A program made the translations under genes and the position numbers. DNA of 64,000 nt from Spirochaetae bacterium HGW-Spirochaetae-1. Its GTDB lineage: Bacteria; Spirochaetota; UBA4802; UBA5550. The DNA lies in NCBI GenBank assembly GCA_002839375.1, contig PGXY01000003.1, positions 343,863 through 407,862 of the forward strand, in the 5' to 3' direction. This document shows, piece after piece, positions 20,241 to 34,987 of this stretch. The notes beneath the pieces are model-generated. The model was given only the letters and a program-made list of their open reading frames with translations. It had not been told where the DNA came from and did no database searches. Every line of letters starts with the position of its first letter. Position 1 is the stretch's first letter.

Positions 20241-20262
20241 AAAAAAGGGCAACCCTTTTGGG
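20241..20262 (-). terminator. Rho-independent terminator for the iron-ADH operon
   Basis: On the minus strand AAAAGGG, loop TTG, CCCTTTT followed by a run of Ts. It lies about 95 bases behind the ADH stop, with a palindromic repeat between. Confidence 0.7.
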
Positions 20263-20317: not shown

Positions 20318-20336
20318 GGCAGGTTTGAAACCTGCC
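20318..20336. repeat. GGTTTGAAACC palindromic repeat
   Basis: Perfect 19-base palindrome GGCAGGTTTGAAACCTGCC centred on G327. It shares its GGTTTGAAACC core and GCC ends with the element at 34959-34987, so it is one copy of a dispersed palindrome. Confidence 0.65.
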
Positions 20337-20352
20337 GCTACGATAGTAAAAT

Positions 20353-21627
20353 CTATACCTTCATCTTCCCGGGACTCTTCTTAACCTTCTTCAAGTCAAG
20401 GGGAGTTCCCTCCCAGGCGGCTTCAAGCACCATCATGGCATCATCGTAGGTGAGCTCCTCGGGGTTGTACACGATACTGCCGTCACCCATGGCCGTTTTG
20501 GCAATGGCGGAAAGCATGTCCTTCGGCACTACCTGATTCCCGCTGCGATCCGTGATTTCCTTGAGGCATCGGGCATGCCTCCCGCCCGTGGCGTCATAGA
20601 GGGACTGGTTGAGGCCGCGGATGTATTCAATGGCTTTCAGGGGGCGATCCTTCTCGGACGTCGCTGCATAGACCTCGTCGCCGGCCAGGGCCCAGAGGAG
20701 ATGCCCCGTATATTTTCCCGATTTGTGCAGGTTATACTCCAGGCCGTACGGCAGCAGAATGGACATACACATACCGTGGGGAACATGGCATACGGCGCCC
20801 ACGGAATGGCCCAGGGTATGGACCATGCCCACCATTGAATTGGAGAAGGCCATTCCGGCCAGGTTCGCCCCGTTGGCCAGGGCCAGGCGGCCGTTCAGGT
20901 CGTTGGGTTTTTTGACGACACCAAGAATATTCCTGCTTATATCGCGTATGGCGATAAGAGCCGTGGTGTCGCTGATGGGGTTTTTCCCGAGACAGGTATA
21001 GGCCTCGCAGGCGTGCGTCAGGGCGTCCATGCCCGTAGGCGCCGTCAGGAAGGGCGGCAGGGTTTTCGTCATGCGCGAATCCAGGATTGCCACATCGGGC
21101 AGCAGGTAATACGAAACAAAGAGCATTTTAAGGTTCTTCACATGGTCTGCGATAACTGCCACGACCGTTACCTCGGAACCTGTCCCCGATGTGGTAGGCA
21201 CGGCGATGAGGGGTTTGAGCTTCTTATTGATGGCGCCGGCTCCGCTGTATTTCATAAGGTTATCGTCATCATAGGAGACAAGGATATTAACACCCTTTGC
21301 AGTGTCAATGGCCGATCCGCCGCCCACGACAATAATGGAATCACACTTGTTTTTGTGGTATATACCGGCCAGTTTATTGACCACGGTAAGGTCCGAATCG
21401 GGGGGAACTTCATCATTTACGGCCCCGATGGTTACTTTGGAACCCTTTACCTTCACGGCCTTCTCAACAAGCTTTATAAGCCCCGCCTGTGAAACGCCCT
21501 TGTCGGTAATTATCATGGGTCTTGCCGCGCTCAGTCTCGATAGAATCTCCGGTATCTTTTCCAGGGCCTTGTGCCCCGATATGGTTTTAACTCGATTGCA
21601 GAATTCATAATATACTGGTAAATCCAT
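20353..21627 (-). CDS. Iron-containing alcohol dehydrogenase
   Basis: Group III iron-dependent NAD(P) alcohol dehydrogenase of 424 residues, which interconverts an alcohol and an aldehyde. NAD-binding VGGGSAID is at 101-108 and PTTSGTGSE at 144-152. The four metal ligands are in place: Asp201 and His205 (GMDALTHACEAY), His270 (GMVHTLGH) and His284 (VPHG). It is the last gene of an operon after a degenerate paralogue and an SCP2-like gene (57-base gap), which hints at a hydrophobic alcohol or aldehyde as substrate. The actual substrate cannot be told from the sequence. Confidence 0.93.
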   Translation of the reverse strand: MDLPVYYEFCNRVKTISGHKALEKIPEILSRLSAARPMIITDKGVSQAGLIKLVEKAVKVKGSKVTIGAVNDEVPPDSDLTVVNKLAGIYHKNKCDSIIVVGGGSAIDTAKGVNILVSYDDDNLMKYSGAGAINKKLKPLIAVPTTSGTGSEVTVVAVIADHVKNLKMLFVSYYLLPDVAILDSRMTKTLPPFLTAPTGMDALTHACEAYTCLGKNPISDTTALIAIRDISRNILGVVKKPNDLNGRLALANGANLAGMAFSNSMVGMVHTLGHSVGAVCHVPHGMCMSILLPYGLEYNLHKSGKYTGHLLWALAGDEVYAATSEKDRPLKAIEYIRGLNQSLYDATGGRHARCLKEITDRSGNQVVPKDMLSAIAKTAMGDGSIVYNPEELTYDDAMMVLEAAWEGTPLDLKKVKKSPGKMKV

Positions 21628-21684
21628 GTTTAACTCCTTTCCATTTTTTAATTGGTGCAGCCGGTGTTCATGCCGCCGCTCCTT

Positions 21685-22227
21685 CTATCCCGTGATCAGG
21701 CGGGCATAGATGAGGATACGGCCCACCCATTTACGCAGGGGAGAAAACTCCGACCACGAGGGATAGCGTTTCACCGCCAGCTTGGTGATCACCTTGGGAA
21801 GCAGATAGGTCTCGATCCTGTTCAGGACCCTCACAATGGCCAGGGACTGGGGCAGATTGCCGTCGACAAAATACCGGTCCCTGGCAAAGGCCACGGTGGT
21901 GGATTCCTGGAAGGTGAGAACCAGGATAGCCGCCTCGATATTCTTGAAGTTCATTTTCAACGGTATCCGCTTGCCCACGGGATTCATTCCCATGAACTTG
22001 ACCTGTTTCTTTTCATTCTTTCCCACGACCATGTACGGTCCATGGGGGTGAACTCCCAGGTAGAAGGCGAAATCATCGGGGAGCTCATCGAACTCTTTCT
22101 TTATATCCCGATCTATCTTTGCCCCCACCTGGATGGCCCTTCCCACGATCCATAAAAGGATGATGAGATATATTCGCTTTATGTATTTTTTCTTTGGTGA
22201 AAAATCCTGACAATTGCATGTTTTCAT
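21685..22227 (-). CDS. SCP2-like sterol-carrier-fold protein
   Basis: Protein of 180 residues. An N-terminal hydrophobic segment (YLIILLWIVGRAI) precedes a domain with the pattern of SCP2-type lipid-binding proteins: PLKMNFKNIEAAILVLTFQESTTVAFARDRYFVDGNLPQSLAIVRVLNRIETYLLP. The tail is basic (AVKRYPSWSEFSPLRKWVGR). SCP2 folds carry hydrophobic ligands such as acyl chains. Position between two iron-ADH-type genes with short gaps (35 and 57 bases) suggests it delivers a lipid-like substrate to them. The family call is from pattern recognition only. Confidence 0.6.
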   Translation of the reverse strand: MKTCNCQDFSPKKKYIKRIYLIILLWIVGRAIQVGAKIDRDIKKEFDELPDDFAFYLGVHPHGPYMVVGKNEKKQVKFMGMNPVGKRIPLKMNFKNIEAAILVLTFQESTTVAFARDRYFVDGNLPQSLAIVRVLNRIETYLLPKVITKLAVKRYPSWSEFSPLRKWVGRILIYARLITG

Positions 22228-22262
22228 CGTATCACTCCTTGTTTATTCTCTGACGCCGTTTA

Positions 22263-23405
22263 CTACAGGGCCTTGTTCATGATTGCCATGCAATCCTGTG
22301 CCTTCACTTTACCACCAGCCGTTATAGCGGCGTCCCCGGCGGCCTTTTCCATCCGATAGGCGGGAATATTCAGCTCCTTAAGACCCCGCGGCATGGCCTT
22401 TGCGCAGGCCTTCTGCAGGGCCCGTATCTTTTGAATGGATTTCTCCGCCTTGTCCGCATCGGATACGCGGCACGATTCGTCAAAGCCTATGAGGGCCATG
22501 AGCAGGTCCTGGCGGATGTTTTCTTTTTTTGCCAGCTTGTATTCCAGACTGGCGGAAAGGAGAAGTCCCATGAGCATCCCTTCGTTATGGCCCGTTTCAA
22601 GGGCCAGGGCCCTGGCCAGGTTGTGAACGATACCGGCCGGCGCATTGGCATAGGCGATGTTTGCAGCCACCGAGGCATTGGCGAGAGCCATGAGTGCTTT
22701 ATTGTTGCGCGGTTTTTTCACCACTACGGGAAGATGATCGCTGATATAGCGAATTGCCGCCAGGGCATACGCATCGGTCATGGGATTGTTTACCGGTTCC
22801 TGGCATGCCTCTATGGCATGAGTCAGTGCCGCCATGGCGGAATTCACGGCATCACCGGGAGCCTGTTTCAGCATCATGCGGTTGTCGATGCATATGATAT
22901 CGGGAAAAAGAAAATCCGATTTATAAACCCGGTTATCGATCAGCGCCTTGTTACCCGCTTCATAACCGGAAAGCGACGCCGTGACAACGGCCGCAAAGGG
23001 CCGCAGGTTTCCCGCAACCCGGTCCTCGCCGGCCAGGCTGGCCAGGGAAGCCTTTTCAGTTACGGCCATATTGATGCCCCTGGCGAGATCCATGATTGAA
23101 CCGCTTCCCAGGGCTATTATGGAGTCACATTCCTTCCATCGGAAAAGCGCAGCTCCTTTTTCAATGAGCGAGGCGCTGACGGTGGAGGTCGCTCCGTCAA
23201 ATACAGCGCCGATGGTCAGCGTGGATTCATAAAATGCTTTAATGAGTTTTTGCAAAAGGCCCGAGTCCACCACAGACCTGCTGGTAACAATCATGGGCCG
23301 GTGAACGCCCATTCCGGCAAACTCCAGGGGGATATTCTCCATACCCTTTTTGCCGGAAATTATTTTGGCCTGGCTGAAAAATTCAAAAAAATTTGGTGCC
23401 TTCAT
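22263..23405 (-). CDS. Degenerate iron-alcohol-dehydrogenase paralogue (likely non-catalytic)
   Basis: First gene of the operon, 380 residues, clearly homologous to the ADH downstream along its whole length (ISGKKGMENIP start, GSGSIMD at 100-106, ALTHAIEA at 193-200). The active site is altered. The metal Asp of MDALTH is Ala192, the catalytic-pocket His after VHNLA is Arg265, and the His of PHG aligns with Glu275. The cofactor loop TTSGTGSE is TASLSGYE. His196 and His261 remain. I infer a pseudoenzyme or an enzyme with changed chemistry, perhaps a partner subunit of the canonical ADH. The coding frame is intact, so it is not a decaying pseudogene. Confidence 0.85.
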   Translation of the reverse strand: MKAPNFFEFFSQAKIISGKKGMENIPLEFAGMGVHRPMIVTSRSVVDSGLLQKLIKAFYESTLTIGAVFDGATSTVSASLIEKGAALFRWKECDSIIALGSGSIMDLARGINMAVTEKASLASLAGEDRVAGNLRPFAAVVTASLSGYEAGNKALIDNRVYKSDFLFPDIICIDNRMMLKQAPGDAVNSAMAALTHAIEACQEPVNNPMTDAYALAAIRYISDHLPVVVKKPRNNKALMALANASVAANIAYANAPAGIVHNLARALALETGHNEGMLMGLLLSASLEYKLAKKENIRQDLLMALIGFDESCRVSDADKAEKSIQKIRALQKACAKAMPRGLKELNIPAYRMEKAAGDAAITAGGKVKAQDCMAIMNKAL

Positions 23406-23822: not shown

Positions 23823-23861
23823 AAAAAAGGGCGTCCCGCCCATCAGGTATGCGGAACGCCC
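23823..23861 (-). terminator. Rho-independent terminator behind the acyl-CoA synthetase
   Basis: On the minus strand GGGCGTTCCGC pairs with GCGGGACGCCC (one wobble pair) and is followed by six Ts. It is 21 bases past the synthetase stop. The rest of the 476-base gap from 23406 to 23881 is AT-rich and shows no gene. Confidence 0.85.
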
Positions 23862-23881: not shown

Positions 23882-25687
23882 TCAGTTATTTACATAAACG
23901 GCGTCGATGGAGTCCTGGTATTTTTTCAGGACCTCGCGGCGCTTTAATTTCAATGTCTGCGTGAGCATGCCGTTTTCCACGGAAAAGCCCTCGCTGAGGA
24001 TGATAAATCTTTTGGGGATTTCATAGTTGCCGAATTTCCCATCGAGCTGCTTCCTTATAGCCGTCTCTATGAGATCGATGATCCGCTTGTCCTGCACCAT
24101 GGCCGCATGATCAAGGGGGATGTCCTTATCACGGACGTATTTATCCATGACGACAAAATCGGGATAGATGAGACAGACCGTGAAGAGCTTATTGAGACCA
24201 TAGATCATGGCCTGCTCCACATAGGGGATGAGCTTTATCTCCTCCTCTATGGCGGCGGGAAAAACAAACTTGCCGTTTTCCAGTTTAAACTGCTCCTTGA
24301 TCCGGCCCGTGATGAAGAGATACCCATCCTGGTCCACGAAGGCCCGGTCGCCGGTACGCAGTCCACCGTCGGCGGTCATGGTCTCGGTCGTGGCCTCGGG
24401 CTTGTTGTGATAGCCCTTCATGACATTGGGACCGTATACGATGAGCTCGCCGTCCTTGCTGTTTTCGCCGGTCTCTGATCTGTCAATGACCAGGGTTACC
24501 TTGTCAATGGCCCGGCCGCAGCTGCCGATTTTAAATCCGTCAGGGGCGTTGACGGACCCGGCCGGTGTTATCTCCGTCATACCCCAGCATTCATACACGG
24601 GGATGCCGATATCAAAAAAGAATTCGGCGATATGGGGGCTCAAAGCCGCGCTGGAGCTTATGGCATGTTTCATGCAGCCGCCGAATTTCAGGCGGATTTT
24701 CGAGAATACGATCTTGTCGGCGATGGCGAATTTGATATTCGTTCCCAGGCTGGATTTTCCCCGTGCAGCCAGGGCCCGGCGTTTCTTGCCGGCCTTGACT
24801 CCCATATCGAAAAGGAACTTGGCCAGGCCGCCGTCCTCGTTCATCTTGGCATTGAGACCGTCGTAAACCCGGTTGAATATTCGGGGCACAGCCACGAGCA
24901 TGGTAGGCTTCACCAGGGCCAGGTCATCCACGATGGTCGTGGGGCTTTCGGCAAAACCCGTAGATCCGCCGAAGCGCATGACCGTATGAAGTTCCGCTGT
25001 CTGCCCGTAGGAATGGGCCCAGGGAAGGAAGGAGAGCGTAATATCCTCCTTATCAAGAACATGAAATATCTTGATGATGGCATGAACGTTGCTGCTGAAG
25101 TTGCCATGGGTGAGAAGCACGCCTTTAGGGTCTCCCGTGGTACCCGACGTGTAGATGAGTCCGGCAACATCTTCGGGAGCGGGATAAACGGTCTTCACGG
25201 GATTCTGTTTCCCTTTATCCTCCAGGTCCCTCATGGACCCGGGGCCTTCGCCGTCGATAAGGATGATATGCTCAAGAGTAGCGATCTCCTTTGTCCAGTT
25301 CTTCACCTTTTCATAAATCCCCTGGTCGGAAACAAGAAGGACTTTCACGGTGCTGTCGGTAATGATATACTGCCATATTTTCTCCAGTTCAGCCTTGTAC
25401 ATGGGAACGAATCGGGCTGCCAGGCCGTAGGTTGCATAACAGGAAACCGCCCAGGCCACACTGTTATTATCGATGATGCCCACGGCATCGCCTTTTTTCA
25501 CTCCCAGTCCTGCCAGACCGGCCCTGAGATTGTCAACCCTTGCAGCTGTTTCTCCGTAGGTTACCCAATCATACCCGGTCTTTTCTTTGTTTTTTGTTCC
25601 GAGCCAGTTTCGGTCGGCGAATTTCGCCACGCTTTCTTCGAACATTTCCACGAGATTATCGGGCTTGTCCAGTACATAGTTACCCAT
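23882..25687 (-). CDS. Long-chain acyl-CoA synthetase (AMP-forming)
   Basis: ANL-superfamily ligase of 601 residues that activates a fatty acid with ATP to the acyl-CoA. P-loop-like motif YTSGTTGDPKGV is near residue 180; further core motifs are YECWGMTEITP, GELIVYGPNVMKGYHNKPEAT, LRTGDRAFVDQDGYLFITGR and KLENGKFVFP. The length and the long-chain signature match FadD15/AMP-forming acid ligases. The ATG at 25687 (MGNYVLDKP) has AAGGGG eight bases upstream; the open frame reaches 25729 without a site. A candidate palindromic operator lies 47 bases upstream. It forms its own transcript. Confidence 0.93.
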   Translation of the reverse strand: MGNYVLDKPDNLVEMFEESVAKFADRNWLGTKNKEKTGYDWVTYGETAARVDNLRAGLAGLGVKKGDAVGIIDNNSVAWAVSCYATYGLAARFVPMYKAELEKIWQYIITDSTVKVLLVSDQGIYEKVKNWTKEIATLEHIILIDGEGPGSMRDLEDKGKQNPVKTVYPAPEDVAGLIYTSGTTGDPKGVLLTHGNFSSNVHAIIKIFHVLDKEDITLSFLPWAHSYGQTAELHTVMRFGGSTGFAESPTTIVDDLALVKPTMLVAVPRIFNRVYDGLNAKMNEDGGLAKFLFDMGVKAGKKRRALAARGKSSLGTNIKFAIADKIVFSKIRLKFGGCMKHAISSSAALSPHIAEFFFDIGIPVYECWGMTEITPAGSVNAPDGFKIGSCGRAIDKVTLVIDRSETGENSKDGELIVYGPNVMKGYHNKPEATTETMTADGGLRTGDRAFVDQDGYLFITGRIKEQFKLENGKFVFPAAIEEEIKLIPYVEQAMIYGLNKLFTVCLIYPDFVVMDKYVRDKDIPLDHAAMVQDKRIIDLIETAIRKQLDGKFGNYEIPKRFIILSEGFSVENGMLTQTLKLKRREVLKKYQDSIDAVYVNN

Positions 25688-25733
25688 TGATTTACCCCTT
25701 CTATTTTTAGTTATTATTTCTGCCAACAAGAAA

Positions 25734-34958: not shown

Positions 34959-34987
34959 GTACGGGCGGGTTTGAAACCCGCCCGTAC
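34959..34987. repeat. GGTTTGAAACC palindromic repeat (second copy)
   Basis: Perfect 29-base palindrome with arms GTACGGGCGGGTTT and its complement around G34973. It has the GGTTTGAAACC core of the element at 20318-20336. Lying 13 bases after a stop codon it can also act as a terminator hairpin. Confidence 0.7.

Follow-up and report, generated by a model that had tools for sequence, protein, structure and literature searches.

The window analysed here, a stretch of 64,000 nucleotides from Spirochaetae bacterium HGW-Spirochaetae-1, carries three adjacent genes (A, B and C) encoding an iron-containing alcohol dehydrogenase (iron-ADH) paralogue without metal site, a small protein with a predicted SCP2 fold and a canonical iron-ADH. 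Both the gene arrangement and the missing metal site are found again in dozens of genomes, far beyond chance. We consider it likely that the products of A, B and C assemble into a hetero-oligomeric dehydrogenase module acting on hydrophobic alcohols or aldehydes. A would be its non-catalytic subunit and B a lipid carrier.

Organization of the operon

The three genes are clean open reading frames on the minus strand in the order A-B-C, in agreement with the initial annotation, which had described the frame of the upstream paralogue as clean and placed it first in the operon. Table 1 gives an overview of the features. The intergenic gaps comprise 35 nt (A-B) and 57 nt (B-C), and a purine-rich stretch resembling a ribosome-binding site is located 5′ of each gene. 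Given the hairpins before A and after C, both of which are consensus matches, the genes probably form one transcript. The AMP-binding enzyme gene further upstream, whose best NCBIfam match is FadD11 (below the cut-off), probably belongs to a separate transcript and is taken as no more than a hint at function. No gene for aldehyde:ferredoxin oxidoreductase (AOR) is present next to this copy of A-B-C. Just past the operon, at 20318-20336, lies the palindrome GGCAGGTTTCAAACCTGCC, with a near copy 14.6 kb away at 34964-34982. Counting both strands it has three matches (0 expected) and is possibly a small repeat element.

Table 1 Features of the A-B-C operon and its surroundings in the window
Feature	Position	Strand	Basis
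Gene A (380 aa), iron-ADH paralogue lacking the metal site	22263..23405	-	Pfam, alignment, model fold
A192 replacing metal ligand Asp (FucO D196)	22830..22832	-	Alignment
R265 replacing pocket His (FucO H267)	22611..22613	-	Alignment
E275 replacing metal ligand His (FucO H277)	22581..22583	-	Alignment
Gene B, predicted SCP2-fold protein, 180 aa	21685..22227	-	AlphaFold2 model and Foldseek
Gene C, canonical iron-ADH, 424 aa	20353..21627	-	Four metal ligands and cofactor residues intact
2-residue insert of C (residues 349-350), paired C only	20578..20583	-	Comparison of 39 paired and 20 unpaired C
7-residue insert of C (residues 360-366), paired C only	20530..20550	-	Comparison of 39 paired and 20 unpaired C
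C-terminal tail of C (residues 406-424), paired C only	20356..20412	-	Comparison of 39 paired and 20 unpaired C
Terminator-like hairpin and T run 3′ of C, likely end of the operon	20243..20259	-	Consensus scan only
Terminator-like hairpin between AMP-ligase gene and A, probable operon boundary	23829..23841	-	Consensus scan only
Acyl-CoA synthetase-like AMP-binding enzyme upstream of A	23882..25729	-	Pfam AMP-binding, 243 bits

Loss of the metal site in A

A matches the Pfam models Fe-ADH and ADH_Fe_C with 85 bits (cut-off 31.3) and 73.5 bits, both above cut-off, and annotation by Pfam alone calls it just one more iron-containing alcohol dehydrogenase. Its structural model (pLDDT 92) adopts the Fe-ADH fold, with TM-scores of 0.82-0.88 to iron-ADH structures. 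An alignment with E. coli FucO, which served as reference for the numbering of ligands and pocket residues, confirmed each of the deviations noticed in the initial annotation, namely Ala192, Arg265, Glu275 and a broken GTGSE loop. The cofactor loop reads TASLSGYE in A compared to TTSGTGSE in C. Two ligand histidines, His196 and His261, are retained in A of the window.

C matches the Pfam iron-ADH model with 143 bits (cut-off 31.3) and possesses the Asp-His-His-His (DHHH) metal site, the GGGS dinucleotide loop and the TT.GTGSE motif. All four ligands are present in 45 of 46 C proteins, and the remaining one runs into masked sequence. A and C share their fold with the group III iron-ADHs (FucO, B. 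methanolicus Mdh, 1,3-propanediol oxidoreductase), but while C has all residues that define this group, the metal site is lost in A.

The loss extends over the whole A family. Not a single one of 48 A proteins aligned with FucO has a complete set of metal ligands. D196 and H277 are kept in none of them, H200 in 17 and H263 in 28, and the pocket residue H267 is mostly replaced by Gln or Glu. The dinucleotide loop is partly kept in most A proteins (G98 in 42/48, D102 in 37/48), and the cofactor Thr/Ser positions drift. A clade-wide, A-specific set of polar pocket residues that could act as replacement catalytic residues was not found in the sequence comparison. As the whole metal site is lost and no conserved replacement exists, A appears to be catalytically dead.

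Loss of the metal alone is, however, no proof of inactivity, since active metal-free enzymes with iron-ADH fold exist. In maleylacetate reductases the metal Asp is replaced by Asn or Arg and the enzymes work without metal (PMC5125639). A might accordingly catalyse a reaction of its own as a metal-independent reductase of a related lipid aldehyde or acid, and its well-folded scaffold and partly kept dinucleotide loop would fit such a role. We regard this as unlikely, because the pocket histidines are not conserved, H267 is mostly lost and the cofactor positions drift, and A, judged by sequence, differs from the maleylacetate reductases in lacking a conserved alternative catalytic set. The few residues conserved specifically in A (Ser17, Glu28, Leu38, Ser61 and Pro339; Glu28 and Ser61 at 96% each) are all located outside the classical active-site motifs. 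The same drift of residual pocket His and cofactor residues, together with the missing clade-wide polar set, disfavours a new reaction of A on a lipid aldehyde, which the initial annotation had offered as one option.

Selection on A

A is under purifying selection. The dN/dS check proposed in the initial annotation yielded values for A of 0.05-0.42 across 11 close pairs, none of them near 1. Active-site blocks of A have drifted (conservation in one example 0.44 vs 0.86 in C), whereas conservation at residues 21-40 equals that of C. We read this pattern, together with the A-specific residues Glu28 and Ser61, as one sign of a heteromer. The N-terminal region of iron-ADH structures is part of the dimer contacts.

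Between the same loci A has diverged about 2.7 times as much as C, which could be taken to mean that A is a dispensable duplicate drifting towards loss and retained by its operon position alone. This is highly improbable and already largely refuted by the low dN/dS values, by reading frames that are unbroken in dozens of genomes from two phyla, by the block conserved as in C and by the retention of A through apparent transfers between phyla (see below). A pseudogene was ruled out on the basis of dN/dS and wide retention.

Matching changes in C and the origin of the pair

To compare C proteins with and without an A partner, C genes accompanied by an A gene (paired C, n = 39) were set against those without A (unpaired C, n = 20). 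The 2-residue insert, the 7-residue insert and the C-terminal extension are common to all 39 paired C, and all three are missing from the 20 unpaired C as well as from A. The extension forms a basic tail in nearly all paired C, typically EGxPLDRKKIKKG. Tail residues 406-418 are present in 37-39 of the 39 paired C, and residues 409-418 in none of the 20 unpaired C. These additions arose once, so that their match with the presence of A, though strong, represents one evolutionary event and not many independent counts.

In the phylogenetic tree the A proteins form one clade (support 100/100), as do the paired C proteins (100/99). A is sister to paired C (97/80) and unpaired C proteins fall outside. 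The simplest reading of these sequences would be a single duplication, after which the catalytic site was lost once. The B-C pair without A is apparently the older state that preceded the duplication. Together with the three additions in C, this points to one duplication and subsequent reciprocal specialisation of A and paired C, as expected for the transition from a homomer to an obligate heteromer. The A and C distances are correlated (Mantel r 0.75, 0/2000 permutations), as expected for linked genes. Five Desulfobacterota loci (L077, L079, L086, L090, L093) group with Spirochaetota loci in both the A and the C tree, a pattern that suggests transfer of the cassette, including A, from one phylum to another.

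Two fusions were observed. In a Syntrophaceae locus (L099:745-2823, plus strand) about 250 residues of the N-terminal part of A are fused in frame to a complete C, giving a protein of 692 aa. As a single case in a draft metagenome assembly, this may be a real A-C fusion or an artefact of assembly or deletion. At L163:1492-3339 (plus strand) an iron-ADH is naturally fused to an SCP2 domain at its C-terminus, which scores 32.2 bits with the Pfam SCP2 model (cut-off 21.3). Relatives of this ADH-SCP2 fusion were not found in viral contigs.

Pseudoenzymes often turn into regulators, and the best NCBIfam model for A is ErcA (NF041833) with 154.7 bits. A could therefore be an ErcA-like, ADH-derived regulator or sensor acting outside the C oligomer. 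We judge this slightly less probable still than an independent catalytic role of A. The ErcA score lies far below the cut-off of 550 and the model matches C better (268.6 bits), AraC or TetR-type genes are already present near several loci, and the A-C fusion, the ADH-SCP2 fusion and the additions in C indicate contact with the enzyme. Membership of A in the ErcA family was rejected for its low scores. A non-catalytic subunit of the C oligomer remains our preferred assignment for A. The suggestion of the initial annotation that a pseudoenzyme helps the active ADH is well supported by the loss of the site throughout the A clade, purifying selection, inheritance together with C and the matching additions in C.

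B and its probable link to lipids

B has no Pfam match at all and does not reach the cut-off of PF02036 (SCP2). Weak Pfam SCP2 matches occur in 2 of 24 members of the B family (best E 0.016). As a direct Pfam assignment was lacking, folds were compared. Foldseek searches with the AlphaFold2 model of B (pLDDT 80) gave UbiJ-SCP2 as best match, followed by yeast, insect and human SCP2, all with a probability of 1.00. The best E value was 1.5e-4 (range about 1e-4 to 1e-3), and the TM-scores were modest (about 0.33-0.43 normalised by query and 0.45-0.57 by target). According to the model, B has the SCP2 fold. In addition, its N-terminal helix is hydrophobic, and its C-terminal segment (AVKRYPKWS) is basic and conserved.

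In phylum-wide searches the homologues of B adjoin an Fe-ADH or pseudo-ADH, the exception being the weakest match (L187). The initial annotation had called B SCP2-like and linked it to lipid handling. Fold and neighbours support both statements without proving them.

Distribution and gene neighbourhood

The genome (5.2 Mb) contains a second A-B-C set on another contig. It is located behind genes for an AraC-type regulator and an AOR (Pfam AFOR) and is preceded by a run of fatty-acid beta-oxidation-like genes, named from their sequences. A of this second copy has LNRR in place of DHHH and has thus lost all four ligands. In the locus of this second cassette, the gene at L007:3925-4398 (plus strand), which separates the AraC regulator gene from one resembling enoyl-CoA hydratases, encodes a 157-aa protein without Pfam match.

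A match to B was detected in 30 of 59 related genomes. A, B and C are all present in 27 of the 30 loci taken from these relatives, almost always in the order A-B-C and in most cases with AOR directly upstream; the other three (L067, L069, L070) have B-C but lack A. Scanning GTDB genomes with a narrower B alignment, as the broader one was too diverse, revealed 49 loci in Spirochaetota and Desulfobacterota (Smithella, Syntrophaceae, Desulfobacterales), some of the Spirochaetota ones being records already included among the loci of the relatives. Altogether, the three genes co-occur in about 27 further Spirochaetota loci and more than 20 Desulfobacterota loci, mostly with AOR. Co-occurrence, named in the initial annotation as a point to check, holds in dozens of genomes of two phyla, and the refuting condition given there, a paralogue that is not conserved alongside its two neighbours, was not borne out. 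One exception to the pairing was noted at L095:258-2039 (plus strand), where B and an A-type pseudo-ADH have no adjacent C even though the contig continues.

Smithella-type loci are arranged B-A-C-AOR, and a ferredoxin-like gene often follows AOR. An ALDH gene is found beside a few simple B-C loci (L142, L155, L070), and neighbours of the cassette include acyl-CoA synthetases and hydrolases. Smithella-type loci L105 (2326-6177, plus strand) and L108 (same region) carry, beside A-B-C, an AOR - SCP2 - iron-ADH cassette with a Pfam-positive SCP2 gene, which is a second cassette independent of A-B-C.

Proposed function and comparison to known systems

From the fold of B, the linkage of B to ADH genes, the AOR-SCP2-ADH cassettes and the lipid-type neighbours, a hydrophobic alcohol or aldehyde is the best guess for the substrate. 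C would be the catalytic, NAD(P)-dependent and metal-dependent subunit, and A would replace at least one C protomer in the oligomer, which it may stabilise, activate or dock. B could act as lipid carrier presenting the substrate at the membrane, as proposed for UbiJ. The module would interconvert fatty alcohol and aldehyde, serving either alcohol oxidation or acid reduction, and a separate enzyme would link the aldehyde to the acid, AOR in most genomes and ALDH in some B-C loci. We infer the physical A-C heteromer, the activation, the lipid substrate and the coupling to AOR from gene content and sequence. More tentatively, and with rather less confidence than in the module as such, we propose that this may be the first heteromeric iron-ADH known to us, a homo-oligomer turned into an obligate hetero-oligomer. 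In syntrophs, sulfate reducers and Spirochaetota its dead paralogue would organise a metabolon for fatty alcohols and aldehydes that is associated with the membrane and includes an SCP2-fold carrier and AOR.

The A-C pair would add a case to the known pseudoenzyme-enzyme pairs. Among iron-ADHs none with a dead paralogue as subunit is known to us, and a report of one was not found in the open-access literature. In the trypanosomatid enzyme-prozyme pairs (AdoMetDC/prozyme, DHSc/DHSp) a dead paralogue associates with the live enzyme and activates it (PMC5201418, PMC3663545). Like these prozymes, A is a duplicated paralogue of its enzyme, forming one clade sister to paired C, and is presumably dead judging from its residues. 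Unlike A-C, the prozymes are eukaryotic and of unrelated fold, and their activating role is proven, whereas that of A is proposed. In living genomes B-C represents the apparent state before the duplication and A-B-C the derived one, in which A and C both carry changes that match. This makes A-B-C a natural experiment on the route from a homomeric enzyme to a heteromer in which one subunit is presumably dead.

UbiJ-SCP2, the best structural match of B and likewise of SCP2 fold, is an accessory protein of the ubiquinone metabolon that has been proposed to hold the lipid tail near the membrane for its partner enzymes (PMC9499169). B differs from it by its own N-terminal hydrophobic helix, its basic C-terminal segment and its dehydrogenase partners. 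Acid-alcohol routes with AOR and ADH, thought to be sequential, have been discussed for Thermoanaerobacter X514 (PMC8466923). Compared to these routes A-B-C adds an SCP2-fold protein and a pseudo-ADH, and its substrate is probably larger and more lipid-like. Nothing relevant to an AOR/Fe-ADH link in Smithella or to an SCP2/AOR link was found in the open-access literature. Judging by its distribution, A-B-C would be a lipid-alcohol module, so far uncharacterised, of Smithella-type syntrophs, Desulfobacterales and Spirochaetota.

As a separate observation, a glycerol-3-phosphate acyltransferase-like gene is located near the cassette on the opposite strand at L065:8497-11097 (minus strand) and at four similar loci. 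A role in ether lipids is conceivable from its presence near these five loci, and the gene hints at glycerolipid synthesis.
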